A DNA stretch of 64,000 nt from positions 3,472,001 through 3,536,000 of the forward strand of contig NZ_JAUSZX010000001.1 in NCBI RefSeq assembly GCF_030818015.1, written 5' to 3'. The notes below the pieces were generated by a model that saw only the letters and a program-made list of their open reading frames with translations, was not told where the DNA came from and searched no databases. Shown in pieces: positions 3,247 through 18,164 of the stretch (position 1 is the stretch's first letter; each line of letters begins with the position of its first letter). Origin of the DNA: Arthrobacter globiformis. Lineage in GTDB: Bacteria > Actinomycetota > Actinomycetes > Actinomycetales > Micrococcaceae. Both the position numbers and the translations under genes were made by a program.

Positions 3247-5202
3247 ATGACACAAACAAAAATTGCACGGCGCAAAACTGCCGGCCGATTTAGCGCCGGC
3301 ATTCTGGCATTGGTGGTGCTTGCCGGTCTGGGAATTCCGGTTCCCGCCTGGGCCCTGGAGCCAGAGCCGACTCCCACGACGGGCGAGGCAAGTGTTCCCC
3401 CGTTCAGCGACCCCGCGGCTGGCCTCGACACGGAGGCAGCCAGGGCAGCGATGCGGGCAGCCGTGGGCGAAGACGGCGCGCACATGGGCCAGGGCAATCC
3501 AGTTGCTCTCCAGCCGCGGCCGAACGCCGTAACAGAAGCCACATGGGTCCCGTCCTTTGGCGTCAAGGGCCAAGACGTTAGCAGCCACCAAACGGCCGTT
3601 AACTGGCAGCAGCAATGGAACATGGGGTCGCGCTTCGCGTATGTGAAAGCCACCGAAGGCAATTACTACATCAGCGGAAGTTTCAGTTCCCAGTATGAGG
3701 GTGCCCGCAACGTCGGCATGGTTCGCGGCGCCTATCACTTCGCCATCCCCAACGCATCTTCCGGTGCAGACCAAGCCCGCTTCTTCGTGGCCAACGGCGG
3801 GGGGTGGTCGGGTGACGGCTACACCATGCCTCCCGTGCTGGATTTCGAATTCAACCCTTACGCAGGCCAGACCATCAACGGCTTTTACCACGGAAACACC
3901 TGCTATGACAGGACGCCACAGCAGCTGGCTACGTGGGTCCGGGACTTTGGCAACACCATGCGGTCCTTGACCGGCCGACTGCCGGTCATCTACACGAACA
4001 CGGGCTGGTGGAAGCAGTGCACCGGCGATGCCCTTGGCTTCGGCGACTATCCCTTGTGGGTGGCCAACTACCCAACCGCCCCGTCCGACGATGCCGGGCC
4101 TATCCCGTCAAGCTGGAGCCAGTACAGTATCTGGCAGTTTAGCCCAAGCGGGCCGTTTGCAGGCGACTCGAATGTCTGGAACGGCACCTACGCACAGCTG
4201 CAGACCTTTGCCAGGAACGGTGTCGACTCCGCAGGCGCTATCGAGCGGAAGTGGCTGTCATTGGGTGGAGCCTCCGGAAGCCTTGGAGCGGCAATCTCCA
4301 AGTCCGACATCTGCAACCTGGTTGGCGGCGGATGTTACCGATCCTATGCGGCCGGCAACATCTACTGGACCAGCGCAACTGGTGCACATCCTGTCACGGG
4401 CAGCTTTTGGAAAGCCTGGGGTGCGGCGCGCTGGCAAAGCGGCATCGGCTATCCTACCGGCGATGTCACCTGCCCCTACGGGGCGCCCGCCTCCTCAACA
4501 TGCCACCAGAAATTCCAGGGCGGCATTGTCTATGCCACTCCCGTCGCGGGTACCTTTGCGGTGACCAACAGCTACATGTCCGCATGGAAAGCTGCCGGCT
4601 GGCAACAGGGAATCGGATACCCGACCGCGACGGCTTCCTGCGGCCTGTACGGCGGCGGCTGCTACCAGCCCTTCCAAAAGGGCAACATCTACTTCTCTGC
4701 ATCCACCGGAGCCCATGCAGTGACAGGTTCGTACTGGGATGCATGGAAGGAAGCAGGCTGGCAGCAGGGGCTTGGCTATCCGACCGGCCCGACTGGTTGC
4801 GGGCTTTATGGTGGTGGTTGCTACCAGCCCTTCCAAAAAGCCAACGTCTACTTCTCCCCCGCTACCGGCGCCCATGCCGTTTTCGGGGCCTACTTCAGAT
4901 CGTGGCAGTGGGCTGGCTGGCAGGCGGGCGTCGGTTATCCGACTGGACCAGCGAAGTGTGGACTTTACGGCGGTGGCTGCTATCAGCCGTTCGAACGGGC
5001 CACGAGCTACTACACCGCCGCAACCGGCGCAAACATGGTCGGTGAACCGTACTGGTCAGCCTGGCGCAACGCGGGCTGGCAGAGTGGCGGTCTCGGTTAT
5101 CCCCTCGGCGTAGCCGTACAGTACAACGGCTACCGCGAGGTACCGTTCCAAGGGGGATCCATGATCTACAGCGCCACTGGGGTTAACGTACGCCGCAAAT
5201 AA
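3247..5202 (+). CDS. Secreted GH25 muramidase with C-terminal LGFP repeats
   Basis: This is a predicted exported lysozyme (glycoside hydrolase 25) that cleaves the peptidoglycan glycan chain. The N-terminus is a Sec signal peptide: a basic TQTKIARRK start, a hydrophobic core, and a likely cleavage after PAWA at about 36. The catalytic domain spans about 105-325, with GQDVSSHQ (Asp110) and VLDFEF (Asp199, Glu201), the GH25 acid pair. The rest, about 330-651, is a run of about six LGFP-type units with motifs such as GWQQGIGYPT and GLYGGGCYQPF; such repeats are thought to bind the cell wall. The start has GGAG seven bases upstream. No phage genes flank it, so a housekeeping or competitive cell-wall role is more likely than phage lysis. 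Confidence 0.9.
   Translation: MTQTKIARRKTAGRFSAGILALVVLAGLGIPVPAWALEPEPTPTTGEASVPPFSDPAAGLDTEAARAAMRAAVGEDGAHMGQGNPVALQPRPNAVTEATWVPSFGVKGQDVSSHQTAVNWQQQWNMGSRFAYVKATEGNYYISGSFSSQYEGARNVGMVRGAYHFAIPNASSGADQARFFVANGGGWSGDGYTMPPVLDFEFNPYAGQTINGFYHGNTCYDRTPQQLATWVRDFGNTMRSLTGRLPVIYTNTGWWKQCTGDALGFGDYPLWVANYPTAPSDDAGPIPSSWSQYSIWQFSPSGPFAGDSNVWNGTYAQLQTFARNGVDSAGAIERKWLSLGGASGSLGAAISKSDICNLVGGGCYRSYAAGNIYWTSATGAHPVTGSFWKAWGAARWQSGIGYPTGDVTCPYGAPASSTCHQKFQGGIVYATPVAGTFAVTNSYMSAWKAAGWQQGIGYPTATASCGLYGGGCYQPFQKGNIYFSASTGAHAVTGSYWDAWKEAGWQQGLGYPTGPTGCGLYGGGCYQPFQKANVYFSPATGAHAVFGAYFRSWQWAGWQAGVGYPTGPAKCGLYGGGCYQPFERATSYYTAATGANMVGEPYWSAWRNAGWQSGGLGYPLGVAVQYNGYREVPFQGGSMIYSATGVNVRRK
4639..5115 (+). 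repeat. In-frame 159-bp tandem repeats encoding LGFP units
   Basis: The cysteine codon that begins each CGLYGGGCYQPF motif falls at 4639, 4798 and 4957. This gives an exact 159-bp (53-residue) period. The copies are similar at the DNA level, which suggests duplication and recombination within the gene. Earlier units from about 4250 are more diverged. Confidence 0.8.
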
Positions 5203-5535
5203 GCGACGGGGCACGGCGACGAGTCAAACCTGGGGCCAGCGAAAAAGAACTGGTGCGCCCCAGGGGCCCCACACTGGTGGCGTATGTACCTAGCGCGCCG
5301 CCGATTATCCGTTATTGGCCCGGCAGCACAAAGAAAATTTGGGACTGTGAGCAAGAACCGTGTTCTCCGATGACGATGAAAATCCCGGAACCAACACGAT
5401 GAGCGTGTGGCCAGCCAGCAGAGCCCGCGCCGAGCGTCGGCGGGCGACGGGAAAGAAGTCACTGGTGCGTGCCGCCGACTTTGCGGCCGGCCGATGCCTA
5501 ACGGGCTTCGTCACAGTCAGCGCCGCTCGTGCCAG
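5203..5535. other. Convergent intergenic region without a supported gene
   Basis: This 333-bp gap lies between two genes that converge on it. Short open frames are present on both strands (for example a 69-codon frame at 5305-5514), but none has an SD or recognisable composition. I see no strong symmetrical terminator hairpin and no repeat here. Confidence 0.5.
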
Positions 5536-6972
5536 TCATTGTGAAGCCCTTCCCGTCCGCTTTGCCCTGCGCTTGTGCCACACTGCAAGTCCGCCGGCAC
5601 CTGCCAAGGCCACCGCGCCTGCGGTAATGATTCCCGAAACGATATCCCGCGGAACCATCAGCAGTGCGGCGACATAGGTAACCGCGGCAACACAGCACAG
5701 CGCATATGTGCGTACCGGCCACCCGCCCGGGGCCCGCCGACGTGCTACCAGAAAATACACGCCGCCGAGAAGGAAAAAGGATCCCGCGGATGTTGCGGCC
5801 ATCAGCACCAGGTTCCCGGCGGACGCCGGTCCCAGCGCTGCCAGGGCCGAAATAACGAGCACCGAAGGCGTGACCACCGCCAGGATCCAGGTCACCTTGT
5901 CGGCAAAGAGCAGCGAGGAAGCGTTCAAATACAGCAGGTAGCCGAGGGCGATCAGGGGCATTATCTGCGCGACAGGGATGAGGTCCTCACGCCCCACGGC
6001 CATGATGTGGGTCACCACATTCGCTCCACCGCTCGCCACGATGACCAACGCGAGTCCCGCGAAACTCGCTGTCTTCATGACTGAGCGCATCCGCTCCGGC
6101 CGCTCCCCCGGCTTCGCCGACATGATGGCTGGAACCCACGCGTTGTTCAGGGCGCCCAGCAGCGTGACAGTCCCCAGGACAAAAATCTGAACTTTGCCGT
6201 AGTCCCCGGAGACACCCTCCGCAGCCACAGCCGCCAACAGAAAAGCGGCTCCCTGCGTCAGGAGCATCATCGATCCGGTGTGCGGCAAGACGGGCAGTCC
6301 GATGAGCAGCGCCTCTTTTGCGGCGCCGGGTACGGCGAAAGGCGGTGACGGCGGCGCAATGAACAGCGCCGCGACTGCCGTGAGGCAGACCGCGGTCCCG
6401 AAGCCCACCATGAAAACGCTGGCGGTGGCGCCGACAACGAGCATGGCCAACAGCCCCACGCCATAGGCAGCCACCGATGACCCGAGGCTCAGCAGAACGA
6501 ACGCAACGGGCCGGCCTTGGGCTCGAAGCAGAGCCTGGGCAGCCAGCACGGTGGCGAGCAGGCCCATCGTCAGCAGCGCCACGGTGAAGCTGAACACTCC
6601 GTGGCCACCGCCCGCCAGCCACCAGTACACCGCCGCCGCGATGGCCCCGACAAGAGCGCCGAGCAGGCTCAGAAAGCCGCTGATGGAACGTGCCTTGGCT
6701 GCACCGTTATGGTCGAACCATGCCTTGGTAATTGCCAGCGGCAGTCCTGCCGCGCCAAGGACCACGCCAATCTGGATTACCGAGACGGACAGGAACAGCT
6801 CCTGCCATTCAGCATCATTGTTCAGCACTCGGAGCGCAAATGGCTGGACGAGAAAGATTCCCAGGCCCTGCATGAGTGCGCCCACCAGATAAAGAACCGA
6901 GTTCCTGCCTGTCTTGTCCACAGCGCTGCTGTTCCCGGATTCGGCAACGTCTGCCCGCCCGGTACTACTCAC
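5536..6972 (-). CDS. wzx: Wzx-like polysaccharide flippase (MATE/MVF-type)
   Basis: This is a predicted integral membrane transporter of the polysaccharide biosynthesis family (Wzx/RfbX). Such proteins flip lipid-linked oligosaccharides across the cytoplasmic membrane. It has 478 residues with about 12-14 hydrophobic segments after a polar N-terminal 25 residues. A typical family start follows: SVLYLVGALMQGLGIFLVQP. The GTG start overlaps the last 8 bp of legC and no separate SD is clear, so translation is probably coupled. As the last gene of the legionaminic acid run, it likely exports a legionaminic-acid-bearing lipid-linked unit. No Wzy polymerase is identifiable in the window. Confidence 0.85.
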   Translation of the reverse strand: MSSTGRADVAESGNSSAVDKTGRNSVLYLVGALMQGLGIFLVQPFALRVLNNDAEWQELFLSVSVIQIGVVLGAAGLPLAITKAWFDHNGAAKARSISGFLSLLGALVGAIAAAVYWWLAGGGHGVFSFTVALLTMGLLATVLAAQALLRAQGRPVAFVLLSLGSSVAAYGVGLLAMLVVGATASVFMVGFGTAVCLTAVAALFIAPPSPPFAVPGAAKEALLIGLPVLPHTGSMMLLTQGAAFLLAAVAAEGVSGDYGKVQIFVLGTVTLLGALNNAWVPAIMSAKPGERPERMRSVMKTASFAGLALVIVASGGANVVTHIMAVGREDLIPVAQIMPLIALGYLLYLNASSLLFADKVTWILAVVTPSVLVISALAALGPASAGNLVLMAATSAGSFFLLGGVYFLVARRRAPGGWPVRTYALCCVAAVTYVAALLMVPRDIVSGIITAGAVALAGAGGLAVWHKRRAKRTGRASQ

Positions 6973-8119
6973 CGCTGAGTCGTAGCCATTCGTGGACCCG
7001 TTTTATCACGCGGTCCTGATCGGCTTCCGTAAGGTCGGTGGAGCATGGCAGCGAAAGGCCACGGGAAAAAAGATCTTCGCCGATGCTGCCGCCGAGGCTG
7101 AGCTCGTCCTGCAGCGGCGGCTGCATGTGCAGCGGCCGCCATAGCGAGCGGGATTCGATATTCACTTCGGCCAGGAAGTCCTGCAGTTCGTCCCGTGCGC
7201 CAGTTCCGCGCGAGGCGGGGACAAGTACCGAGTACAGCCAGTAGGTCGATTCCTGGCCGGGGAGGCTCGGAGGCGTCTGGATCTCAGTGCCGGCAAAAGC
7301 GTCGGCGTAGCGGGCCGCGATTTTGCGCTTTGTTTCCACGAAGCCGTCGAGCCGCTCCAGCTGCGCCACTCCGAGGGCCGCGGCGATGTTCGTCAGCCGG
7401 TAGTTGAAGCCGATTTCGTCGTGCAGGTAGCCGCGGTCTGGGAGCCGGGCCTGGGTCGAAAGGTGCTTTGCCTTCGCCGCCAGTTCGGGATCGTCAGTGG
7501 TGAACATGCCGCCGCCGCCGGTCGTCATGATTTTGTTTCCATTGAACGAGAACGCACCCATGTGGCCGACCGTCCCGACGTGGCGGCCTTGCAGCGGCCC
7601 CTCGGTCCACATGGCGCCGAGAGCCTCGGCGGCATCTTCGATCAGGATGATGCCGTATTCATCCGCAAGTTCCCGCGCCGCCTGGGCGTCGGCGGGCTGG
7701 CCCAGGATGTGCACGATCTCGATGGCCTTGGGCAGCTTCTCCCCCGCTGCCGTCCTGCGCTCGATCTCGCGGCGCAGGCTCACGACATCCATGCACCAGG
7801 ACTCGGCCAGCGAGTCCACCAGCAGCAGGTCGGCGAACTGGTAGGACGCCGCGTTGGAGCTTGCCATGAAGGTGAAGTCCGACACGGCAACGAGGTCCCC
7901 CGGCTGAACGTCAGCGAGGCGCATCGCAATGTGCAGCGCCGCCGTTCCCGAAGCGCATGCCACGGCGTGCTTGGCGCCGACGTAGTCAGCGAACTTCTGT
8001 TCGAATTCGGAGACAAACTGCCCCACGGAAGAGACAAACCCGCTGGCGACGGCTTCGTTGACGAGTTCGGCTTCACGCTCGCCGATATTGGGTACAGCTA
8101 GTGGGATACGGCTCGCCAC
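6965..8119 (-). CDS. legC: LegC-like PLP-dependent sugar aminotransferase
   Basis: This is a DegT/DnrJ/EryC1 family aminotransferase, predicted to aminate the 4-keto sugar made by LegB during legionaminic acid synthesis. Motifs: the early VPNIGEREAELVNEAV helix; IEDAAEALGA, the PLP-binding aspartate; SFNGNKIMTTGGGG, with Lys196 as the Schiff-base lysine. The preferred start is a GTG at 8119 with GAAAGG six bases upstream. The frame is open to a GTG at 8140, adding seven residues (LPERSI region), but that start lacks an SD. It follows legB by 21 bp. The substrate is inferred from the cluster; the protein alone would only be called a nucleotide-sugar aminotransferase. Confidence 0.88.
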   Translation of the reverse strand: MASRIPLAVPNIGEREAELVNEAVASGFVSSVGQFVSEFEQKFADYVGAKHAVACASGTAALHIAMRLADVQPGDLVAVSDFTFMASSNAASYQFADLLLVDSLAESWCMDVVSLRREIERRTAAGEKLPKAIEIVHILGQPADAQAARELADEYGIILIEDAAEALGAMWTEGPLQGRHVGTVGHMGAFSFNGNKIMTTGGGGMFTTDDPELAAKAKHLSTQARLPDRGYLHDEIGFNYRLTNIAAALGVAQLERLDGFVETKRKIAARYADAFAGTEIQTPPSLPGQESTYWLYSVLVPASRGTGARDELQDFLAEVNIESRSLWRPLHMQPPLQDELSLGGSIGEDLFSRGLSLPCSTDLTEADQDRVIKRVHEWLRLSGE

Positions 8120-8140
8120 AATTGACCTTTCTGGCAACAC

Positions 8141-9157
8141 TTATCGGGAGTAACGTGCGGCTGCGGAAAGGTCCACGCCGCGGGCCTTGATCCATTCGGC
8201 GGATTCCCGCAGGCCCTCTTCGAGGCTGACCTGCGGTGCCCAGCCCAGTTCGGCCAGCGCCTGCGACGGGTCCGAAAGAAGGTGCATGACTTCGCTGGCT
8301 TCCGGGCGGACGCGCTCGTCCTGGGTGATGATCTCCGCCGTTGATCCGGTGACCTTCCGGGCCATTTCAACGAGTTCCCCGATGGAGACGTCGTAGCCGG
8401 TGCCGAGTTGGATGACCTGGCCCTCCAGCGGGATGTCCGCGCTGGCTGCCTTCAGGAATCCGTCGGCCGTGTCAGTGACGTACGTGAAGTCGCGGCGGGG
8501 GGTCAGCGAGCCGAGGTGGATCTTGTCGGCGCCGGCAACCATCTGCTGCAGCACCGTGGGGATCACGGCACGTGCGGACTGCCGGGGACCGTAGGTGTTG
8601 AACGGGCGCAGGACCACTACGGGAGTCTCAAAGGAGCTCGCCCACGCCTCGCAGAGCTTGTCGGCGGCAATCTTCGTGGCGCTGTACGGGGACTGGCCGC
8701 GGAGCTCGTTTTCGATGGTGATCGGCACGGTCTTGGGAGTTCCGTAGACCTCGGACGTGGAGGTGTTGACCAGCCGCGGCACGTTGTGGCGGCGCACGCC
8801 CTCGAGGACGTTCAGCGTGCCCACGACGTTCGTTTCCACGTACGAGCGGGGCGCCTCGTAGGAGTAGGGAATCGCGATGAGGGCTGCGAGGTGGAGGACG
8901 ACATCCGAACCGGCAACCAGGTCGGAGACGTACTCCGCGTCCCGGATGTCGCCGAGGCGCAGATCGACGGAGTCACGCTCTTCGGGGCTCAGGTCATCAA
9001 GCCACCCGTAGGAACCGTTGGAGTTGTAAACGCAAAGGGCGCGCACGTTGGCACCCTGGGCGATCAGCCGCTGGGTGACGTGGCTTCCGATGAAGCCGTC
9101 CGCGCCCGTAACAACTACGGTCTTGCCCGTAAGGTTCTGCTGAGTCAAGGTGATCAC
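8141..9157 (-). CDS. legB: LegB-like nucleotide-sugar 4,6-dehydratase
   Basis: This SDR enzyme of about 338 residues is predicted to convert GDP-N-acetylglucosamine to the 4-keto-6-deoxy sugar, the first modification step of the legionaminic acid route. It shows VVVTGADGFIGSHV (NAD binding), NTSTSEVYG and SPYSATKIAADK (Tyr-x3-Lys), and VVLRPFNTYGPRQSAR. The start taken is the GTG in a GTGA overlap with the ptmE stop. A longer frame to 9223 would overlap ptmE by 70 bp and is unlikely. The adjacent guanylyltransferase suggests a GDP-linked rather than UDP-linked substrate; that is inference. Confidence 0.88.
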   Translation of the reverse strand: MITLTQQNLTGKTVVVTGADGFIGSHVTQRLIAQGANVRALCVYNSNGSYGWLDDLSPEERDSVDLRLGDIRDAEYVSDLVAGSDVVLHLAALIAIPYSYEAPRSYVETNVVGTLNVLEGVRRHNVPRLVNTSTSEVYGTPKTVPITIENELRGQSPYSATKIAADKLCEAWASSFETPVVVLRPFNTYGPRQSARAVIPTVLQQMVAGADKIHLGSLTPRRDFTYVTDTADGFLKAASADIPLEGQVIQLGTGYDVSIGELVEMARKVTGSTAEIITQDERVRPEASEVMHLLSDPSQALAELGWAPQVSLEEGLRESAEWIKARGVDLSAAARYSR

Positions 9158-10221
9158 TGGCCTTTCGCTGTCGCTAGGTCTTTGGGTGTTCCGACGTCGA
9201 TCCAGTCGGATTCGATCGGCCATGCGGCCACTGTCTTGGACTGCTCAATGCAGGCCTGAACCAGTTCCGGCATGGAAAAGGGTTCAAGGTACGGCACCAG
9301 CGCCAGTGCCTCAGGAGACACGGCGTAAATGCCCGTGCTGATTTCGAATTCGATGCTCGGCTTCTCAACAACCGATGAGATCGATCGTCCCTCTCCGATG
9401 TCCAGGACACCGAAGGGCACCTGATGGACGTACGGCCGGGCAGCAACGGTCACGCTCGCGTTCTTGGACGCGTGGAAGGCGAGAAGCTCCGCTGCCGAGT
9501 ACCGCACCATGAGGTCCGCGTTGGTGACAAGCACCGGCTCGGAAATGTCAGGCCGCTCGTGGTAGAGCAGCCCCAGCGCACCGGCGGTGTTGAGGGGCTT
9601 CGCCGGGTCCTCATGCAGATACTTGATCGTGCAGCCGAGCCGGGAGCCGTCGCCCAAGTGGGCCATTATTTTTTCGGCCAGATACGCCACGGAGACATAG
9701 ATGTTCGTGACGCCCGATTCCACCAGTCCGAGGATGATCCACTCGATAATGGTCCGGTCGGCCACGGTCATCAGCGGCTTCGGGGTGTCCTTGGTCAGCG
9801 CGCCCAGGCGCGTGCCCTTGCCTCCGGCCATGATGACGGCAATATTGCTCAGGGACGTCCGGCCCACAATGTCGTTGAGGGTGTGCAAGCCGACGAGCTT
9901 GCCGGAATCGTCCACCACTGGAACTTCGCTGATACGCAGGCTCCGCATCAGGTCCAGCACGGAGGCGCGGGTGGCATCAGGCCCGACGACGTGCGGTGCC
10001 CGGTTGGCGTACTCGTGGACGAGTCCATCGAGTTCGGCTCCCTTGAGCAGGCCGCGGCGGATGTCGCCGTCGGTAAGCACTCCCTGGAGCTTGCCCGACT
10101 CGTCGGTGACGAGGGCTATTGCGGACGCGCCGCGGTCGATAGTCTCCAGCGCCTGCCTAACAGTGGCGTCCTGCCCGATGCAGACGTTTGCGAGGGGCCC
10201 GTCAATACTCATACGTGTCAT
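9154..10221 (-). CDS. ptmE: PtmE-like sugar-1-phosphate guanylyltransferase with CBS pair
   Basis: Residues about 1-120 form two CBS motifs (GVLTDGDIRRGLL and the EVPVVDDSGKLVGLHTLNDIV region). Residues about 125-355 form a nucleotidyltransferase with the signature MAGGKGTRLGALTKDTPKPLM. This CBS-plus-NTP-transferase layout is that of Campylobacter PtmE, which makes GDP-glucosamine for CMP-legionaminic acid. The start overlaps the legG stop as ATGA. A second ATG at 10212 has a better-spaced GGAG, so the true protein may be three residues shorter. The CBS pair may sense an adenine nucleotide. The GDP specificity cannot be read from the sequence. Confidence 0.87.
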   Translation of the reverse strand: MTRMSIDGPLANVCIGQDATVRQALETIDRGASAIALVTDESGKLQGVLTDGDIRRGLLKGAELDGLVHEYANRAPHVVGPDATRASVLDLMRSLRISEVPVVDDSGKLVGLHTLNDIVGRTSLSNIAVIMAGGKGTRLGALTKDTPKPLMTVADRTIIEWIILGLVESGVTNIYVSVAYLAEKIMAHLGDGSRLGCTIKYLHEDPAKPLNTAGALGLLYHERPDISEPVLVTNADLMVRYSAAELLAFHASKNASVTVAARPYVHQVPFGVLDIGEGRSISSVVEKPSIEFEISTGIYAVSPEALALVPYLEPFSMPELVQACIEQSKTVAAWPIESDWIDVGTPKDLATAKGQ

Positions 10222-11372
10222 TCTCCAGCGCCGATGTCAATGAAGGCCTTGGTTAGCGGCGTCCGTCCGCTGCCAACCACTACGCGTTCGATCCGTTCGG
10301 ACGAATGCGAGTCCCCATACGGATTGACCACTTGGCGGGCCAATTCCTGGAACTCCGCGCTCAAAGCCTTTTCAATACTAGCGTGGATCCCCGGACGCTC
10401 GTCGCGGCAGTGGATGACGTTGGCGCCGCTTTCACGGCCTTTTTGCCGGTCCCCGACATTGACGACCGGCACGGAAAACGTTGCAGCCTCAAGAATGCCG
10501 GAGGAGGAATTCCCCACCAGGGCGTCGATGGTGGCCATGACACGGGGGTAAAGCGGTCCCAGGCTTTCCCGTACGATCGCGGTGCCGCCGGCAGCAATCT
10601 CCTCAAGTTCTGCCACGATTTCGTGTCGCCCGGCGTCAAAACCCGGATAAGTCAGAATCGCTGTGCCTGCGGCGGCAATGGACTCGTCGAATACCTGCCG
10701 TGCCAAGGCGCCGGCGTTCCCGGACATCTCGGCTGTGGGCGGGTGGTATGTGACCATCAGCAGCGGACGGATCAGGGGCCGGCCGAACTCTGCCTGGAAC
10801 TCTTCCTCTGTCAGGGGGTTCGGCTCCCTGAACCGGTCGAGCCCGGGGGCACCTGTCTGATGAATCCGTTCCGGCGATTCGCCAAGCTGGGCCACCCGGC
10901 GGGCGGCCCCGGCCGTGCTCACACAATGTTGGTCCGCCAGTTTGGTCACAGCGTGCCGGACGCGCTCATCGAGCGCCCCTTCAGTGACTTCCCCGCCATG
11001 GAGATGCACCAGCCTTACGCCTGAGACAACAACTGCCGGCACCACGTAAAGCAGCTCCCAGCGGTCGCCAAGAACAACGACGGCGTCTGGCTTGCTCCGC
11101 TGAATCAGCTCGGCCATGTTCCCGGACAGTTTCGGGCCCAGCGCCAGCTGGCCCAGAGCGGAGGCGTCATCCAGGTGGAGCCCCAGGTCATGGTGCACGA
11201 AGGCGCCGTCCTGGAGTCCTGCCTCCCGCAGCCGGCTGGCTGCTGTCCCGGCCGGGAACCCGACAGCGGTTGCCACGTGCAACTCGACGTCAGGATTTCC
11301 GGCCAGCTGGACAAGGACCGGGGCGAGTGGGAAGAGATCCGCCCGCGTCCCTACGAACCCCAGCACCCGCAT
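10218..11372 (-). CDS. legG: LegG/NeuC-like hydrolysing UDP/GDP-sugar 2-epimerase
   Basis: This is a member of the UDP-GlcNAc 2-epimerase family (384 residues). It is predicted to release the nucleotide and invert C2, giving the 2,4-diacetamido-tetradeoxy-mannose precursor of legionaminic acid. It has VLGFVGTRADLFPLAPV at the N-terminus, the family loop VVVLGDRWE, VHLHGGEVTEGA, and VGNSSSGILEAATFSVPVVNVGDRQKGRE, the nucleotide-binding C-terminal motif. It starts one base after the legI stop and overlaps ptmE by four bases. Neighbours decide LegG over NeuC (sialic acid). Confidence 0.9.
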   Translation of the reverse strand: MRVLGFVGTRADLFPLAPVLVQLAGNPDVELHVATAVGFPAGTAASRLREAGLQDGAFVHHDLGLHLDDASALGQLALGPKLSGNMAELIQRSKPDAVVVLGDRWELLYVVPAVVVSGVRLVHLHGGEVTEGALDERVRHAVTKLADQHCVSTAGAARRVAQLGESPERIHQTGAPGLDRFREPNPLTEEEFQAEFGRPLIRPLLMVTYHPPTAEMSGNAGALARQVFDESIAAAGTAILTYPGFDAGRHEIVAELEEIAAGGTAIVRESLGPLYPRVMATIDALVGNSSSGILEAATFSVPVVNVGDRQKGRESGANVIHCRDERPGIHASIEKALSAEFQELARQVVNPYGDSHSSERIERVVVGSGRTPLTKAFIDIGAGE

Positions 11373-11373
11373 G

Positions 11374-12426
11374 TCAGGCCAGGTCTTCGGCGGTTATCGG
11401 CGTTCCGGCCTTGATGGCACGGCCTGCGGAGCGGCCCACCACGTTGGCTGACGGCAGGAGTCCGCCCTCTGGGCGGAGGATGGCGACGTCGGCCTCCGTG
11501 ATCACGGCACCCGCTGCGATGTCCCGGACTGCGTGGAAGGAGCGCCGCACCAGCCCGGCGTTGGCTTCCTCGCTGGGCATCCTGCGCTTGTTGCCGTCTC
11601 CCAGTGCCCGGTACACGTCACGGACGGAGCGCACGTAGTCCTCGAACTCGTCCCGCTCAAGCGACGCGGAATGGTCCGGACCGTTGCGTGTCTTGTCGGT
11701 GGTGATGTGCTTTTCCAACAGAGTCGAACCCAGTGCCGTGGCCGCGATGGCCGTCAGGGAGCCCGGCGTGTGGTCGGACCAGCCAACCTCGACGCCGAAT
11801 TCCTTCCGCATCGCGGGGATGGCGAGCAGGTTGGCCTCGTCCAAAGGTGCGGGGTAGGCAGAGACGCAGTGCAGCAGGACGGTCGCGGGCGCCTTGGCCG
11901 TCGCCTCGAGCGCCGCGGCGATCTCTTCCCGGGTTCCCATTCCCGTGGACACGATCATCGGAATGCCGAATTCCGCAATGGCGGCCAGATAGGGAGTGTT
12001 CGTCAGCTCTCCGGAGCCGATCTTGAGTCCCGGAACACCGATGTCCGCAAGCATTCGTGCGCTGTCGTAGTCGAAGGGCGTGGAGAGGAACGTGATCCCC
12101 CGCTCGGAACAGTGGTCCCGCAGCTCAACCCAGGCAGTCTCGGGCAGGGTCAGGCGCCGCAACATCTCGGACTGGGACTCCGCGAACCCAGCCTTTTTCT
12201 GGTACGGCGTGGTGTCTGCAGCTTCCGTGACCAGGGATTCAGGCTTGAAGGTCTGGAACTTCACCGCGTTGGCGCCGGTGTCGGCAGCCATGTCGATCAG
12301 TTCATGGGCAACTGCCACGTCACCGTCGTGATTCACTCCCGCCTCTGCAATGATGAAGACTTCCTCGTCAGGGCCGATGCGGTGCGGACCGAACGTCACA
12401 TGCTGGGCTTTGGATTCGATGGTCAC
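11374..12426 (-). CDS. legI: LegI/NeuB-like nonulosonic acid synthase
   Basis: This is predicted to condense the mannose-type precursor with phosphoenolpyruvate to form the nine-carbon legionaminic acid. It is a 350-residue protein. A NeuB TIM-barrel spans about 20-270 (FIIAEAGVNHDGDVAVA, AVKFQTFKPESLV, GSGELTNTPYL, VGWSDHTPGS, EKHITTDKTRNGPDHSASL). A C-terminal SAF/antifreeze-like domain follows (about 285-350). The GTG start overlaps the legH stop (GTGA). NeuB, PseI and LegI are close relatives; the assignment to legionaminic acid rests on ptmE, legB and legC nearby. Confidence 0.92.
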   Translation of the reverse strand: MTIESKAQHVTFGPHRIGPDEEVFIIAEAGVNHDGDVAVAHELIDMAADTGANAVKFQTFKPESLVTEAADTTPYQKKAGFAESQSEMLRRLTLPETAWVELRDHCSERGITFLSTPFDYDSARMLADIGVPGLKIGSGELTNTPYLAAIAEFGIPMIVSTGMGTREEIAAALEATAKAPATVLLHCVSAYPAPLDEANLLAIPAMRKEFGVEVGWSDHTPGSLTAIAATALGSTLLEKHITTDKTRNGPDHSASLERDEFEDYVRSVRDVYRALGDGNKRRMPSEEANAGLVRRSFHAVRDIAAGAVITEADVAILRPEGGLLPSANVVGRSAGRAIKAGTPITAEDLA

Positions 12427-13124
12427 AGGGTTGCGCCTTTCTTGGATGTCAATTCCCGGGCCGGAACACCGATGTAGGTTGCTCCCCCGGCGAGATCACG
12501 CGTCACGACAGCGCCCGCACCGATCACAGACAGTCCTCCCACGGTGCAGCCGGGAAGGACACGGGCGCCTGACCCAACAAATACTCTATTGCCCACGAAC
12601 GAGGCCCCCAAAAGCACCGAACCAGGGGCGAGGTGCGTCCCGGCTCCGACGCCGGCCTCGTGTTCGACAATCGCGCCGGTGTTGATGATGACCGCTGGGC
12701 CTATGTCCGCCAACGGGCCCACGTGGGCGTGCTCGCAGACCTGTGACAGGGCCCCGAGGCGGGCGGTCGGATCAACGGTTGCACTTGCTGCGACCAACGG
12801 GCCGGTGAGCAGGCCCAGTTCCGGCGAGGCGATGATCGATTCCGCGATGCGGTTCCGGACGCCGTTGTCCCCGATGCCGACGGCGATCGACAGGGACGCT
12901 TCGGCGGCAAACCTCAGCGCTTCGCCGTCGTCGAAAAACACCCGCGGGGTCCGGCCGTCCGCGGCAGCGAACGGGCTGAGGCTCCGTTCCGACGCTGCGG
13001 AGTCCCGGGCTGCTCCAGCCAGGCCTGCGTCAGAAACGGCGGCCACATGGTCTCCGCGGCCGTTCACGATCGACGCGAGGCTGCGCGCGTGCCCGGACGC
13101 CCCGATGATCAGCCAGGCGCCCAT
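12423..13124 (-). CDS. legH: LegH/NeuD-like sugar N-acetyltransferase
   Basis: This is a predicted acetyl-CoA-dependent acetyltransferase acting on the 4-amino sugar in the legionaminic acid route. It has an N-terminal Rossmann-like half (GAWLIIGASGHARSLASIV) and a C-terminal left-handed beta-helix of hexapeptide repeats (TARLGALSQVCEHAHVGP to GCTVGGLSVIGAGAVVTRDL). It has 233 residues, typical for NeuD/PglD. The ATG lies one base after the preceding gene's stop. A 65-codon upstream extension of the frame overlaps that gene and is rejected. It overlaps legI by four bases. Confidence 0.88.
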   Translation of the reverse strand: MGAWLIIGASGHARSLASIVNGRGDHVAAVSDAGLAGAARDSAASERSLSPFAAADGRTPRVFFDDGEALRFAAEASLSIAVGIGDNGVRNRIAESIIASPELGLLTGPLVAASATVDPTARLGALSQVCEHAHVGPLADIGPAVIINTGAIVEHEAGVGAGTHLAPGSVLLGASFVGNRVFVGSGARVLPGCTVGGLSVIGAGAVVTRDLAGGATYIGVPARELTSKKGATL

Positions 13125-13125
13125 C

Positions 13126-14175
13126 CTAGAGCCGGCCCGACTCTTTAAGCCTGACCGCCTCGACGGCGACCGCCGGCGTGAGCTTCGGCAGCGGGGAGGG
13201 CAGGTGTTTGAGCGGGTGGCGGAGGAAGTGGATCGGGGACAGGCCGGCTTCGCCGCTGTGGGCACCTTCGGGGCGTTTCCGCAGCCCGAGGACCGCCTGG
13301 GCTTTTTCCAGGGGGCCACTGGCCCAATAGTCCCAGAATGCGCCGAAAGAGCGGCTGTTCCAGCCGAGCAGGCTCTTCAGTTCGGCCGGGGACTTCATGT
13401 CCTGCACACCGAGTTCCATGTCGGCTATGCGTTTGAGCTCCGCGTTGTCCGGTGACGGCTCATAGAATTCCGGCCACAGCTCACGCATCCGAAGTCCGGG
13501 ATCGGATTCCGCGTTCTGGCCGAGCTGGAAGTCCGGTCCGTAGATCTCCACGTCAGCGCCGGCAGCCGCGGCGTAGAGAAGGGCCGTCGACATACGGTTC
13601 GAAACAACTTTCTGCGCGGAGGCCATCATCCAGAGAATCCGCCCCAAGAACTGCGGGTCTCGGCGGTCGCCCGCGCTGATGACGCTGTGCCCCGCGTCCG
13701 TCCAGGCGCTGTAGATCTCAGGGTGCTCGAGGTCCTCGATATGGAGGCACACCGTGGCTGGTCCGTCACGGCGGAGGACCTCCTGTGCGAACCCATCGTG
13801 GTCACCGCTGACTTTCACCAGTGCTGTTCCGTGGAGGGGCAGCACCAGGGGGCCCATCGTCCGGTCCGGCAGCCCGCCCTTATCCTGCACTGCTTTCTGG
13901 AGGTACAGGAACGGCGCCCCGACAGCGGTGATCATGCTGGATCCGTCCGGGAAAAGGTTCTCTGGTCCTTCGGGCGAGTATCCCCGCGACGCCGACGTCC
14001 AGACCAGCCGCTTCCGGTTGGCACCACGGTCATTGAAGTCTGCAAACTGGGCCAAGACAGGCGATTTGACCGTCCATCCGTGCTGCACCAAGCCCGGAAT
14101 GTGGTGGATCCTGTTCATTCCGCAGTGGTGCGCGAATGCCGCAGAGTGACCGTAATAGTGATTCTGGATATCCAT
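13126..14175 (-). CDS. Unrecognised protein heading the legionaminic acid operon
   Basis: I do not recognise the 349-residue product. It is soluble, with no signal peptide or membrane segment, and is rich in His/Trp/Tyr near the start (IQNHYYGHSAAFAHHCG, HHIPGLVQHGWTV). Its middle contains two alternating beta-alpha runs. The second (SAWTDAGHSVISAGDRRD, then VVSNRMSTALLYAAAAGADV and EIYGPDF) resembles the donor half of GT-B glycosyltransferases. The last 50 residues are basic and proline-rich. It is the first gene of the run and abuts legH by one base. A transferase using CMP-legionaminic acid would fit, since no other sialyltransferase-like gene is present. That function is inference only. 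Confidence 0.75.
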   Translation of the reverse strand: MDIQNHYYGHSAAFAHHCGMNRIHHIPGLVQHGWTVKSPVLAQFADFNDRGANRKRLVWTSASRGYSPEGPENLFPDGSSMITAVGAPFLYLQKAVQDKGGLPDRTMGPLVLPLHGTALVKVSGDHDGFAQEVLRRDGPATVCLHIEDLEHPEIYSAWTDAGHSVISAGDRRDPQFLGRILWMMASAQKVVSNRMSTALLYAAAAGADVEIYGPDFQLGQNAESDPGLRMRELWPEFYEPSPDNAELKRIADMELGVQDMKSPAELKSLLGWNSRSFGAFWDYWASGPLEKAQAVLGLRKRPEGAHSGEAGLSPIHFLRHPLKHLPSPLPKLTPAVAVEAVRLKESGRL

Positions 14176-14212
14176 TTAGAGTAGCGGCGCCTTGAGCAAT
14201 AGAGTTGAGCAG
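14176..14212. promoter_or_regulatory. 37-bp divergent junction with leaderless-type promoter
   Basis: Two divergent gene sets are separated by 37 bp. Rightward, TAGAGT (TANNNT -10 type) is followed by seven bases and then the ATG of the ptmF-like gene, the classic spacing for a leaderless actinobacterial transcript. Leftward, TACTCT sits two bases before the other ATG. No SD precedes either start. The -35 elements, if any, must lie inside the opposite coding region. Confidence 0.45.
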
Positions 14213-15298
14213 ATGACGCTCACATCATACTTGGATGTCTCTCCGGCCTTGGCTCCGGTGCCTTCTGCCCGGCTGGCCGGGCAGCCGGAGGGGGGCCGCA
14301 GGACCTCCGCTCTGGTGAGGGGCACCGGCTCCATTGGCGCCCGGCATTTGCGTGTGCTCGAAGAGATGGGTGTCGACGACATCTTCGCGCTCCCCGTCCG
14401 TCCGACCGCAAGCCTTGCCGGCCGGAGCGACATTCCCGCGTCCGTCAAGTTGCTCACCAAGCACCCGGAAACAGACATGGACGTGGTGATCATCGCCACC
14501 GACACGGCGCGGCACGTCGATGATGCCCTGGAAGCCCTGGACCATAGCCCCAAGGCACTCCTGCTGGAGAAGCCGGTCAGCCAGGATGCGGCGAGTGCCC
14601 GCAGCCTCTCGGCGCACCCGAGGGCAGACACGATTTCCGTGAGCGCGCCGCTGCGGTTCCATCAGGGACTCGCGGTCCTGGCCGACCTGCTTCCGCGCAT
14701 GGGCCAGGTCACCAGCGCCCAGGTGCGCTCCCAGTCCTGGCTGCCGGCGTGGCGCCCCAACCGCGACTACCGCGACAGCTACTCGGCCCGCGCTGCCGAG
14801 GGCGGGGCCCTGCGCGACCTCGTCCACGACATCGACTACCCCGTCATGCTGCTCGGCGCGCCCTCCTCCCTGCAGGCCACGTTGGGGCACGGCGTGCTCG
14901 GAATCGAGGCCGAAGAATCGGCCGACCTGCTGTGGGACGGCCACGGAGCGGTCCACATCCGGCTTGACTACGTCACCCCGGTCAAGACCCGCAGCATCCG
15001 CATCAGCACCACCGACGGCGCGTTGTGCTGGGATGTGGTACACAATGAGATCGCCGTCGAAATTGCGACGGCGGCAGGCGTCCAGCGGAGATCGATCCGC
15101 TTTCCGGATGATGCTTCGGTCGATGTGGCTCTCGCCCGCCAGACCCTTGCTGTTCTGGAGCAGGCCGGCGTGTCCGCCGGCAACCTGATGGCCCGGTTTG
15201 TGCCGGCAGAGCTTGCGGACGGAATTCGTGCCGTGGCCATCTGCGACGCGGCCCGGGCCGCCCACTCCTCCGGCGGGAAAGAACCGATAGTGTGGTAA
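14213..15298 (+). CDS. ptmF: PtmF-like Gfo/Idh/MocA oxidoreductase
   Basis: This is a NAD(P)-dependent sugar oxidoreductase-like protein of 361 residues. The Rossmann motif SALVRGTGSIGARHLRVLEE follows an N-terminal extension of about 30 residues. DVVIIATDTARHVD and LLLEKPVSQD (the EKP motif) are family hallmarks. A Gfo/Idh-type protein accompanies the ptm genes of Campylobacter, as I recall; its exact step is uncertain. The frame is open to a TTG at 14192, but the ATG at 14213 is favoured because a -10-like TAGAGT ends seven bases before it. It is the first gene of the rightward trio. Confidence 0.75.
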   Translation: MTLTSYLDVSPALAPVPSARLAGQPEGGRRTSALVRGTGSIGARHLRVLEEMGVDDIFALPVRPTASLAGRSDIPASVKLLTKHPETDMDVVIIATDTARHVDDALEALDHSPKALLLEKPVSQDAASARSLSAHPRADTISVSAPLRFHQGLAVLADLLPRMGQVTSAQVRSQSWLPAWRPNRDYRDSYSARAAEGGALRDLVHDIDYPVMLLGAPSSLQATLGHGVLGIEAEESADLLWDGHGAVHIRLDYVTPVKTRSIRISTTDGALCWDVVHNEIAVEIATAAGVQRRSIRFPDDASVDVALARQTLAVLEQAGVSAGNLMARFVPAELADGIRAVAICDAARAAHSSGGKEPIVW

Positions 15299-15370
15299 TC
15301 AGCTTCAGCTGCAGACAACGTCAGCGTCCGATCCGGCACGCTGGGCACGACTCCCGAGGGCAACAACACC

Positions 15371-16162
15371 ATGACTGATACTTCCATCCGCCCCCGCGTC
15401 CTGGCGGTCATCCCGGCACGGGGAGGATCCAAAGGGCTACCCGGCAAGAACATTCGCCCCCTGATGGGCAAGCCGCTCTTGGCCCACTCCGTCGCGCTGG
15501 CAGCTCTCCTGGGCGATTCCGTCAGGTGCATCGTGTCAACGGATGACGAGACCATCGCCGAAACGGCCCGTGCAGCCGGCGCCGAGGTCCCTTTCCTGCG
15601 TCCCGCCGAGCTGGCGTCGGACACGGCACCCATGAGCGTGGTGCTCCGTCACGCCTTGGCCGCCATGGAGGAAATCGACTCGGTGGCTTACGACATGGTG
15701 CTGCTCCTGGACCCGACAAGCCCGACCCGCACCCCCGAGCGGGTGCGCGCGGCCATCGACGCCCTCGTGGCCACGCCAGAGCTGGACGGCGTGGTTGCGG
15801 TCTCCGAGCCCTTCTTCAACCCGACCTGGGTGGGGGTGCGGCCTGAAGCCGACGGCCCCGGCCTGGTGAGGTACTTCGAGGAAGGAACAGGCGTCGTCCG
15901 CCGCCAGGACGTGCCGCGGTACATGCGCATCAATGGAAGCTTCTACGTCTGGCGGGCAGATTTCATCCGCCGGCTGGAAACCAGCTGGTTCGATGAGGGC
16001 CGCCACGGGTTCGTGGAAATACCGGAAACGCATGCTTTCAGCATCGACGACGAACACGAGTTCCGCCTCGTTGAGGCGGTCGTCGGAGCGGGACTGGCCC
16101 CGCTGCCGGGCTACCAGCCCGACACTGCACCCGGCGCGTCCACCACGGAGCCGGCCAAGTGA
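15371..16162 (+). CDS. legF: LegF-like CMP-nonulosonate cytidylyltransferase
   Basis: This is predicted to activate legionaminic acid with CTP to CMP-legionaminic acid, the donor for glycosyl transfer. It has 263 residues. The cytidylyltransferase signature VIPARGGSKGLPGKNIRPL lies near the N-terminus, with LLLDPTSPTRTPERVRAAI and NGSFYVWRADF further on. The SD is GAGGG about ten bases upstream. The frame overlaps ptmA by four bases (GTGA). NeuA (sialic), PseF and LegF cannot be separated by motif; context favours LegF. Confidence 0.9.
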   Translation: MTDTSIRPRVLAVIPARGGSKGLPGKNIRPLMGKPLLAHSVALAALLGDSVRCIVSTDDETIAETARAAGAEVPFLRPAELASDTAPMSVVLRHALAAMEEIDSVAYDMVLLLDPTSPTRTPERVRAAIDALVATPELDGVVAVSEPFFNPTWVGVRPEADGPGLVRYFEEGTGVVRRQDVPRYMRINGSFYVWRADFIRRLETSWFDEGRHGFVEIPETHAFSIDDEHEFRLVEAVVGAGLAPLPGYQPDTAPGASTTEPAK

Positions 16163-16962
16163 CCGGCCTAGACGGACTGGACGGCATCTTCAGCCTTGAA
16201 GGGCGCATGGCACTGGTCACCGGAGGCGCCGGGCCACTGGGCCGGGTGCTGGCCGGGACTCTCGCCGCCCAAGGTGCCGACGTCGTCGTATCAGACGTCG
16301 CCGCCGATGCCTGCGAAGAAGTAGCAGATCAACTGGCGCGCCAGTACGGCGTGAAGGCCACGGCGGTAGCGGTCAACCTCCTGGAAGACGGCGGAACGAG
16401 CGAACTGGCCGGGGCCATCGACGGGCCGCTGGACATCCTGGTGAACAATGCTGCCTTTACCGGCACCTCGGGGATCCCCGGCTACGCCGTCCCCTTCGCG
16501 GAACAGACCGACGAGGCCTTTGAGCTGGCCTCAAAGCTGAACCTCCGAGTGCCGTTTTCGCTCGCCCGCGAACTCGCACCGAAGCTCTCGGCGGACGGAC
16601 GCGGCTCGATCATCAACGTGTCGTCAATTTATGGGATCGTGGGACCGAACATGGGCCTTTACGAAGGCACGGTCATGGGCAACCCCGCCGCTTACGGCGC
16701 CACGAAGGGCGGCATCGTCCAGCTCACGAGGTATCTGTCCACGGTGATGGCCCCTGCCGTTCGCGTCAATGCCTTCGCGCCAGGAGGGATCGCCCGGGGC
16801 CAGGCCGGGGAGTTCACCGAACGGTACGAGAAGCTGACCCCGCTGCGGCGAATGGCCACGGAGGACGACTTCCGCGGCGTTGTCGCCTGGCTCGCCTCGG
16901 ACGCTTCCCGGTACGTCACAGGCCAAACCATTGCGGTCGACGGCGGCTGGAGCGCTTGGTAG
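16159..16962 (+). CDS. ptmA: PtmA-like short-chain dehydrogenase
   Basis: This is a classical SDR of 267 residues. ALVTGGAGPLGRVLA is the cofactor motif, ILVNNAAF the NNA motif, INVSSIYG the catalytic Ser, and AAYGATKGG the Tyr-x3-Lys. An SDR of this kind (PtmA) lies beside ptmB/legF in Campylobacter flagellin-glycosylation loci, and pairing with a Gfo/Idh protein here repeats that arrangement. Its substrate is not established. GTG start inside the legF stop, so the two are coupled. It is followed by 22 bp and then a convergent glycosyltransferase gene. Confidence 0.78.
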   Translation: MTGLDGLDGIFSLEGRMALVTGGAGPLGRVLAGTLAAQGADVVVSDVAADACEEVADQLARQYGVKATAVAVNLLEDGGTSELAGAIDGPLDILVNNAAFTGTSGIPGYAVPFAEQTDEAFELASKLNLRVPFSLARELAPKLSADGRGSIINVSSIYGIVGPNMGLYEGTVMGNPAAYGATKGGIVQLTRYLSTVMAPAVRVNAFAPGGIARGQAGEFTERYEKLTPLRRMATEDDFRGVVAWLASDASRYVTGQTIAVDGGWSAW

Positions 16963-16984
16963 GCGCCCCCGCGGTTGCGGCGGA

Positions 16985-17809
16985 CTAGCGGGAGGCTGCA
17001 GTTCGGATGCGCCGGATCAGGGACGGCGGCAGGTAGTACATCATGTACAGGGCCGCACGGAATGCCGTGTTGCGGATCAGTTGGCTGCCCGCAGACTTCC
17101 CCAGCAGCAGGGCGAGGTCCTTGCGGCCGGCATATACAGTCTTGACGTAGGACGCGCGGGGATGTACGCCCCGGCTGGTTTGGTCGGGGTGGATGCGGTA
17201 CTCGACGACGTCGGCCTCGAGGACCGCCATGCGTCCGCGCAGCGCCAGGCGCAGCCAGAGGTCGTAATCTTCCATCTGCCGCAGCGGCTTATACCCGCCC
17301 ACCGCCCGGTAGTCAGTGGCACGGAACATGATCGCCGACTGGACGAGAACGTTCTGCTCGAGCAGCTTTCCCCGCACGTCAGCGCCTGATGCGTGTCCGA
17401 ACGCTCCGATTCGCGCGCCTTCCTCATCAATCCACGGCGTCTGGCCGGTCACGGCCACGGTGTCCGGATGCTCACGCAGGTACGCGACCTGCCGGGCAAA
17501 TCGGCCGGGCAGTGCGACGTCGTCGGAGTCCAGCCGGGCAATGAATTCGCCCCGGGCATGCTTGCACGCCTCGCGAAGGGCATGCCCCACGCCTTGGGAA
17601 TTCGTACCGTGGACCAGCCGCACCCGCGGGTCGGAGGCCCATTCCGTGCCCGGGGCCAGTTCCACCCCGTCAAGGTAGAGGATCAGCTCGAAGCTGGCGC
17701 CGGTCTGGTCTAAAACGGAGCTAACCGCCCGGTCCAGCCACCGGTGCATGCTGTTGGTCGGTATGATCAGCGAGACATCCACCATGGGTTCTACCGGCTC
17801 TGCGGCCAT
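16985..17809 (-). CDS. Family 2 glycosyltransferase
   Basis: This is a GT-A fold transferase of about 274 residues. Motifs: VDVSLIIPTNSMHRWLDRAV (nucleotide-sugar domain start), FIARLDSDDVALPGRFARQV (the DxD region) and QMEDYDLWLRLALRG (the ED/W acceptor region). These are typical of family 2 enzymes that add sugars to surface glycans. The ATG at 17809 lies one base after the DUF2304 stop. A longer frame to 17857 would overlap that gene. No transmembrane anchor is seen apart from a weakly hydrophobic C-terminus. The acceptor and sugar are unknown. Confidence 0.87.
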   Translation of the reverse strand: MAAEPVEPMVDVSLIIPTNSMHRWLDRAVSSVLDQTGASFELILYLDGVELAPGTEWASDPRVRLVHGTNSQGVGHALREACKHARGEFIARLDSDDVALPGRFARQVAYLREHPDTVAVTGQTPWIDEEGARIGAFGHASGADVRGKLLEQNVLVQSAIMFRATDYRAVGGYKPLRQMEDYDLWLRLALRGRMAVLEADVVEYRIHPDQTSRGVHPRASYVKTVYAGRKDLALLLGKSAGSQLIRNTAFRAALYMMYYLPPSLIRRIRTAASR

Positions 17810-17810
17810 A

Positions 17811-18164
17811 TTATTTGCCGTCCGTTTCCCAGACTCTCGGAGTCTCGTCGATGGCAATCCTCCGCGACAGCTTCGTCAGCGAGATCTCGGTCTGGCGAAA
17901 CCGCTGGTACGTCGTGGCCATGAAGATCAAGAGCCATACAACGACGCCGTAAAGCACGAGGTCGGTTCCGCGGCCGATTCCGAACCATCCGGCGACGGTG
18001 GTCAACATCTGCGGAAAGAAGATTGAAAGCGCGGCCACGAAAGTGAAGACCATCAACATGAGGCGGCGGATTGCCAGGTGCCTTGCGTTGGACCCGCCCC
18101 GCATGAGGATCATCGCGACGAGGACGACAGCGAGGACCAGGATGAGCTGGATGACGATTAGCAT
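17811..18164 (-). CDS. DUF2304 small membrane protein
   Basis: This 117-residue protein has three hydrophobic segments (about 3-20, 33-58 and 70-87) and a charged C-terminal tail with coiled-coil tendency (YQRFRQTEISLTKLSRRIAI). This layout matches DUF2304, small membrane proteins often encoded next to dolichyl-phosphate-mannose-synthase-like GT2 enzymes. A role as membrane partner of the adjacent GT2 is an inference from that habit. It sits between two GT2 genes with gaps of three bases and one base. Confidence 0.8.
   Translation of the reverse strand: MLIVIQLILVLAVVLVAMILMRGGSNARHLAIRRLMLMVFTFVAALSIFFPQMLTTVAGWFGIGRGTDLVLYGVVVWLLIFMATTYQRFRQTEISLTKLSRRIAIDETPRVWETDGK

Follow-up and report, generated by a model that had tools for sequence, protein, structure and literature searches.

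A legionaminic-type nonulosonate cassette in Arthrobacter globiformis and a candidate family of nonulosonate transferases

Gene content of the cassette

The 64,000-nucleotide stretch of Arthrobacter globiformis DNA analyzed here (hereafter the window; contig NZ_JAUSZX010000001.1 of assembly GCF_030818015.1, positions 3,472,001 to 3,536,000) comes from a genome of 5.09 Mb in three contigs and contains, at 5536-16962, a cassette predicted to make and use a nonulosonic acid (NulO) of the legionaminic acid (Leg) type. Reading from high to low coordinates, the minus strand carries a gene for an uncharacterized protein that we call X, followed by legH, legI, legG, ptmE, legB, legC, and a flippase-like gene; a ptmF-like gene, legF, and a ptmA-like gene lie on the plus strand (Table 1). 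The original prediction had located the named legionaminic acid genes at 6965-16962, and they are where it placed them, each with domain and model matches. Its list of nine genes is right but missed X and the flippase-like gene, and its description of the pathway as near-complete was too cautious: judged from sequence, the cassette encodes all seven core legionaminic-type enzymes, and homologs of glmS, glmM, and glmU, each above its curated cut-off, occur elsewhere in the genome and could supply N-acetylglucosamine 1-phosphate (GlcNAc-1-P). The GDP linkage and the exact isomer of the product we infer. For legB and legH the longest open reading frame (ORF) begins too early, and the likely starts are TTG at 9148 and ATG at 13124, respectively.

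LegB, LegC, LegH, LegG, LegI, and LegF are found together on the basis of best-matching models and operon order, and the PtmE encoded among them carries two CBS domains and an NTP_transferase domain (Pfam). Only LegG, of the six Leg enzymes, exceeds its NCBIfam cut-off (286 versus 236 bits); because most scores fall under the curated cut-offs, the assignments rely on the best model together with gene company. For both LegB and LegC the legionaminic model is the top NCBIfam model. LegB is 45% identical to the annotated Campylobacter jejuni LegB and 52-54% identical to those of Rhizobium and Azospirillum, with invariant Rossmann and YxxxK positions in a five-row alignment that includes all three. 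PtmE is 37-39% identical, over 97-99%, to its counterpart in two complete alphaproteobacterial sets, and PtmA is 39-40% identical to the short-chain dehydrogenase (SDR) of two alphaproteobacterial sets (tblastn). LegI is the sole NeuB match in the window genome. LegF contains RGGSKGLPGKN, presumably the CMP-NulO synthetase motif, and the PDB entries that match it best, 6ifd and 9ftb, represent CMP-N-acetylneuraminate-synthetase-type proteins.

The original prediction regarded the PtmE-type nucleotidyltransferase beside the dehydratase as the decisive marker, which holds only in part. A LegB homolog (54-57% identical) also adjoins a nucleotidyltransferase on plasmids of Streptomyces californicus and Deinococcus aquaticus, beside PelF-like genes, in stretches where no NeuB is annotated, so a LegB gene paired with a short nucleotidyltransferase gene is by itself no mark of legionaminic acid. 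Because these plasmid-encoded nucleotidyltransferases are short (237 and 245 aa) and cover only 64% of PtmE, it is the CBS-bearing PtmE together with LegC, LegG, LegH, LegI, and LegF, and not the pair, that carries the pathway argument.

These plasmid loci are of separate interest. The stretches from S. californicus (L100, 8953-16140) and D. aquaticus (L101, 6976-19176) encode a LegB-like dehydratase, the short nucleotidyltransferase, and an oxidoreductase, adjoining genes for a PelF-like GT4 glycosyltransferase and an endo-alpha-1,4-polygalactosaminidase, and perhaps direct synthesis of a Pel-like exopolysaccharide with a LegB-type sugar. A circular C. jejuni record of 2.8 kb, entered as a "plasmid" (L102, NZ_CP154830.1), contains legB and an unannotated legC-like stretch and may be a chromosomal fragment.

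Table 1. Features of the cassette and its borders (window coordinates; scores in bits are for NCBIfam models).
Feature	Position	Strand	Evidence or predicted role
Flippase-like membrane protein, 478 aa	5536-6972	-	candidate exporter of NulO-bearing lipid-linked glycan
legC, pyridoxal phosphate-dependent aminotransferase	6965-8140	-	PF01041 E 3.6e-101; best model TIGR04181 LegC, 378.8 (cut-off 420)
legB, NDP-GlcNAc 4,6-dehydratase	8141-9148	-	best model TIGR04180 LegB, 412.4 (cut-off 475)
ptmE, CBS-CBS-nucleotidyltransferase	9154-10221	-	PF00571 x2, PF00483 E 4.6e-36; predicted GDP-GlcNAc maker
legG, hydrolyzing 2-epimerase (NeuC family)	10218-11372	-	TIGR03568, 286.3 (above cut-off 235.9)
legI, legionaminic acid synthase (NeuB + SAF)	11374-12426	-	PF03102 E 2.3e-82, PF08666
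legH, hexapeptide N-acetyltransferase (NeuD/PglD type)	12423-13124	-	TIGR03570, 138.5 (cut-off 160.8)
X (P0002), uncharacterized, 349 aa	13126-14175	-	predicted GT-B-like fold; candidate CMP-NulO transferase
ptmF-like Gfo/Idh/MocA oxidoreductase, accessory	14192-15298	+	PF01408, PF22725; alternative start ATG 14213
legF, CMP-NulO synthetase	15371-16162	+	PF02348 E 3.9e-19
ptmA-like SDR, accessory	16159-16962	+	PF13561 E 6.2e-42
GH25 + LGFP-repeat protein, cassette border	3247-5202	+	PF01183, PF08310
GT2 glycosyltransferase, cassette border	16985-17857	-	PF00535

Recurrence of the cassette and the slot it occupies

A search with PtmE as bait returned nine named loci, eight from Arthrobacter and one from Tersicoccus solisilvae. 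All nine contain legB, legC, ptmE, legG, legI, legH, legF, and a flippase homolog, and all keep the order legH-legI-legG-ptmE-legB-legC-flippase, so the grouping is not due to chance. This gene order, for which the original prediction had proposed a search, recurs in Micrococcaceae, and the claim of a PtmE-kind, legionaminic-type pathway in an actinobacterium within a surface-glycan locus is supported. X is present in 8/9 fetched stretches, and L079, the presumed counterpart of the Tersicoccus locus, has X about 5 kb beyond ptmA. A. pascens DSM 20545 and Arthrobacter sp. AFG20 hold nearly the same cassette, the proteins of the former being 90-100% identical to those of the window. The Leg cassette is not unique to the window genome, and its distribution in Arthrobacter is patchy; NeuB had no match in any of the 17 same-genus genomes of our family sample (described below). 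In one genome (G581; L076, L089), a Leg cassette that includes X lies about 310 kb from another NeuB, which is accompanied by PseB- and PseC-like genes (tblastn) in a stretch where X was not detected.

The surroundings of the cassette recur as well. The gene order in the window is CpaF, UGE-like, GH25, the cassette from the flippase-like gene to ptmA, GT2, DUF2304, GT2, DUF6541, ABC exporter, GlfT2-like, and UGM, while the same-genus genome G648 (L106) has UGM, GlfT2, ABC, DUF6541, GT2, DUF2304, GT2, GH25, UGE, and CpaF. No Leg gene or X was found in the L106 slot, where a GT2 homolog adjoins GH25; NeuB was sought in G648 at this locus only. In L074 and L086, borders homologous to CpaF/GH25 and to GT2/DUF6541 enclose a pseudaminic acid (Pse) set that includes X and flippase homologs of its own. 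L077 and L080 share only the second border (GT2, DUF6541) beside a Pse cassette, and L104, L105, and L107 hold other genes in the slot region. The locus looks exchangeable: its slot is filled by Leg genes here and by Pse genes in two relatives, and a further relative has no NulO genes there.

The four Micrococcaceae Pse cassettes (L074, L086, L077, L080) encode X homologs 47-51% identical and flippase homologs 38-52% identical to those of the window. Their PseB-type dehydratase scores above the TIGR03589 cut-off, their PseC- and PseI-like proteins are 30-37% identical to LegC and LegI, and homologs of ptmE, legG, and legH were not detected in them by tblastn.

Recent arrival on a mobile element was considered, with evidence that is not convincing either way. 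The window contains no tRNA, repeats in 5000-17200 are neither long nor near-identical (the longest direct pair spans 44 nt at 70%), and the GC content is 65.1% in the cassette versus 62.7% and 61.7% in the adjoining DNA and 66.5% farther to the right. DUF2304 (17811-18164) and DUF6541 (18947-21010), both families of unknown function, border the variable locus in several Micrococcaceae.

Genomic association of X with nonulosonate synthesis

We searched a class sample of 394 genomes with a profile of X and with NeuB, along with a family sample of 245 genomes; the window genome belongs to both. X occurs in 14 of the class genomes, distributed over 8 family labels and including three weak matches (E 1e-13 to 1e-25). 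In all 14, and for all 15 X matches in them, the contig that carries X also has a NeuB match of E 4e-64 or better no more than 15 kb away, compared with about 0.18 of 14 expected by chance, a figure computed from hand-entered genome sizes and NeuB counts. X was found in 15 genomes of the family sample, with NeuB within 9 kb in 14. Because the window genome is counted in both samples, the union comprises 28 genomes, 27 of which have NeuB within 15 kb of X. In the exception (G469; L087, contig C11, 9514-12302), X and a flippase homolog are side by side, no NulO synthesis genes were detected near X, and homologs of NeuB and the cytidylyltransferase occur on another contig (L088).

As a control we used a window neighbor, DUF6541 (PF20176), which scores above its cut-off in 61/394 class genomes. 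Twelve of these also have NeuB (counted by hand, E < 1e-30), and the two lie within 15 kb of each other in one, the window genome itself; in G273 they are about 21 kb apart, and in 6/12 they are on different contigs.

The 28 genomes divide by the type of NulO genes that accompany X. Seven contain the LegB/PtmE set, 18 contain a PseB-type dehydratase above the TIGR03589 cut-off (exceeded by 18 of 20 candidate dehydratases), and three are undecided: the contig of L075 ends before a dehydratase, L087 has none, and L057 has two candidates that match no NCBIfam model at 1e-60. In a tree of X, the 11 Micrococcaceae Leg-type rows, including the window, form a supported clade (98/97), beside which eight Pse-type rows and L087 form another (100/99), and L047, a Leg-type X of another family, falls outside both. 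The tree omits L090, L091, and L096, near-copies of kept rows or of the window, as well as L059, found by the profile and missed by tblastn; residues preceding the NH.YGH motif were removed, the label Pse was given to L075 and L057, and the tree was flagged for long branches that meet and for two rows of odd composition. The split fits a matching of X to its Leg or Pse donor, as agreement and not as proof.

The flippase-like protein itself has no Pfam or NCBIfam match, but a simple scan finds 14 hydrophobic segments in it, and its 38% identical homolog in L074 matches PF01943 Polysacc_synt (E 4.9e-11). The gene adjoins legC in 9/9 named clusters, and a homolog is present in 14/14 family-sample X loci. 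Because the cassette includes this gene, a lipid-linked intermediate can be argued; GT2, ABC exporter, GlfT2-like, and UGM genes occur nearby. The acceptor may be a wall polymer, perhaps resembling teichulosonic acid, another lipid-linked glycan, or protein, and of all the genes here X and the flippase-like gene have the greatest bearing on it.

Predicted route, alternatives, and relation to known systems

Based on this gene content, we give slightly better than even chances to a cassette that both makes and uses a legionaminic-type NulO, with X as the transferase, the flippase-like protein as the exporter, and the whole occupying a slot that a Pse cassette can also fill. GlcNAc-1-P from the housekeeping GlmS, GlmM, and GlmU would be converted by PtmE to GDP-GlcNAc, from which LegB, LegC, and LegH would form a 2,4-diacetamido-6-deoxy sugar. 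LegG would release and epimerize this sugar, LegI would condense the product with phosphoenolpyruvate, and LegF would yield CMP-Leg or a close isomer. X would then transfer the legionaminic-type acid onto a lipid-linked glycan, to be moved outwards by the flippase-like protein and added to the wall or to another surface glycan. Several observations weigh against this reading. The scores of LegB (412/475), LegC (379/420), LegI (380/400, NeuB_NnaB model), and LegH (139/161) fall below their NCBIfam cut-offs, as does that of LegF, whose best model is PseF (113/206). L106 is not an exact empty site, its GT2 being 44% identical and inverted, with about 1.3 kb between GT2 and DUF2304. Finally, a flippase homolog occurs in only 1/13 class-sample X loci, limiting the flippase link to the family.

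PtmF and PtmA were not detected by tblastn in two otherwise complete Leg clusters, L082 and L098, and so are not part of the core. Genome-wide, PtmF has matches in G000 (100%) and G479 (59%), a best identity of 27% in the L082 genome, and none in the L098 genome; for PtmA the search covered the clusters. The original prediction had counted both genes as part of the set, and both are present in the window, but they look accessory and may determine the final isomer, e.g., 8-epilegionaminic acid. L082 and L098 constitute a natural test of their role.

A serious alternative, if a somewhat unlikely one, is that Leg is only an intermediate, which PtmF and PtmA, acting on CMP-Leg by an oxidation and a reduction, turn into a different isomer, for example 8-epilegionaminic acid. 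Consistent with this, the core apparently can do without them, the window genome has a full GlmS, and PtmA matches PF13561, the family of the Acinetobacter baumannii proteins AciE and EpaB. Excerpts of the respective papers tie AciE to an isomer change by prediction (PMC5595891), report such a change for EpaA-EpaB from nuclear magnetic resonance of a complemented strain (PMC12053666), and assign the 8-epilegionaminic acid of A. baumannii to the combination of a Leg module with elaABC, whose product ElaA is a putative oxidoreductase (PMC9676051). On the other hand, part of a paper on Plesiomonas shigelloides places PtmA, after work on C. jejuni, in the first, precursor segment of the pathway (PMC4481668); the likeness to A. 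baumannii Ela/Elg is by description, the absence of PtmA refers to clusters, and stereochemistry cannot be read from sequence.

Protein X has no Pfam, NCBIfam, PHROG, or PADLOC match. A Pfam scan of 39 members of its alignment (E up to 1) gave two unrelated weak matches, in one member each, and no known sialyl- or NulO-transferase family, and its profile matched no PDB sequence at E up to 10. The AlphaFold2 model (pLDDT 86.4, pTM 0.88) has a two-domain GT-B architecture, and its structural matches (Foldseek, VIA) are GT-B proteins with modest scores; no enzyme titled sialyltransferase is among the VIA matches listed. X is 99% identical to a clustered protein and 85% to an A. globiformis protein; tblastn found it in no phage record and in one plasmid record, an 11.85-Mb Nonomuraea gerenzanensis entry with a NeuB homolog about 8 kb away. 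We read X, a soluble protein with this predicted GT-B-like fold, as a candidate for a new family of CMP-nonulosonate transferases. X could instead be a non-transferase of the NulO pathway with a GT-B-like fold, such as a nucleotide-sugar hydrolase, an epimerase, or a regulator, leaving transfer to a neighboring GT2. The best Foldseek matches are indeed UDP-GlcNAc 2-epimerases (E 7.1e-5), as are the top VIA matches, and GT2 genes flank the cassette, yet we consider this unlikely.

The C. jejuni nucleotidyltransferase PtmE is thought to make GDP-GlcNAc. If the Arthrobacter PtmE were instead a uridylyltransferase, the early steps would be UDP-linked, resembling in this respect Bacillus subtilis, which makes Leg from UDP-linked precursors according to a passage of PMC7439481. 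The sequence matches of PtmE are mixed: its nearest NCBIfam models include uridylyl- and guanylyltransferases, none above cut-off, and its best PDB matches likewise mix the two, the first being a mannose-1-phosphate guanyltransferase (7d72, E 6.4e-23) with a glucose-1-phosphate uridylyltransferase close behind (8x7s, E 1.5e-21). A pathway drawing on the UDP-GlcNAc that GlmU makes would, however, presumably have no need of a separate nucleotidyltransferase, and ptmE adjoins legB in 9/9 named clusters, so we give the UDP route little credence. That X merely shares surface-glycan islands with NeuB and acts on another sugar is very improbable: the locus does hold GT2, ABC exporter, GlfT2-like, and UGM genes, but the neighboring DUF6541 has no such link (1/12 versus 14/14, 6/12 being on different contigs), L106 has these neighbors and lacks X, and X recurs with NeuB across the 8 family labels.

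Returning to the reading that X transfers a NulO made by the cassette, the enzyme set PtmE, LegB, LegC, LegH, LegG, LegI, LegF, PtmA, and PtmF is that of the C. jejuni CMP-Leg pathway, and the part of PMC4481668 with the P. shigelloides table lists the same set. Unlike that of C. jejuni, the window set is actinobacterial and lies beside other surface-glycan genes, and a Pfam scan of the cassette ORFs found no Maf domain; what it has instead are X and the flippase-like gene. Rhizobium sp. WL3 and Azospirillum thermophilum both have plasmid genes for the same nine enzymes (legB, legC, neuC, neuB, acetyltransferase, nucleotidyltransferase, Gfo/Idh, cytidylyltransferase, and SDR), 32-55% identical to those of the window, but on one strand and in another core order, with the Azospirillum neuB two genes further on; X was not detected in these stretches by tblastn.

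In an excerpt of PMC7725333, the GDP route is reported in 93/96 C. jejuni genomes and no actinobacterium is named for it. Leg and Pse are known mostly from Gram-negative flagella, O-antigens, and capsules, the Gram-positive cases being Clostridium flagella and Bacillus spores. The Kdn (ketodeoxynonulosonic acid) teichulosonic acid of Streptomyces coelicolor, described in a section of PMC7831098, likewise places a NulO in an actinobacterial wall polymer, but Kdn falls outside the 5,7-diamino acids that characterize the LegB/LegC type. The NulO modules of the A. baumannii K locus (lga, ela, aci, psa), compared here by description from excerpts, are likewise exchangeable within one capsule locus and include additional SDR genes whose effect on the isomer is presumed or demonstrated, although in a Gram-negative capsule, unlike the window. 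Among the matches listed in the open-access literature, neither this Leg cluster nor X was found described, and two of those that mention Arthrobacter concern an Arthrobacter sialidase. The pathway itself adds a new member to a kind already known; what sets the locus apart is X, as a candidate new transferase family, and the slot in which Leg appears to be exchanged for Pse. We tentatively extend this, at a little less than even chances, to X as a new CMP-nonulosonate transferase family (only Actinomycetota among the named rows) that serves both Leg and Pse, with a dedicated flippase in Micrococcaceae, and to the locus as a Gram-positive counterpart of capsule-type switching in which a NulO cassette and its matching transferase are swapped together.

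With a complete Leg cassette that recurs in Micrococcaceae, the known range of Leg and Pse would come to include actinobacterial surfaces, and X would be a concrete candidate for the missing transferase step in a family without annotation. Related species encode either a Leg or a Pse version of X, which makes the donor specificity of X testable on a pair of similar proteins, and the cassette is present in strains such as A. pascens DSM 20545.

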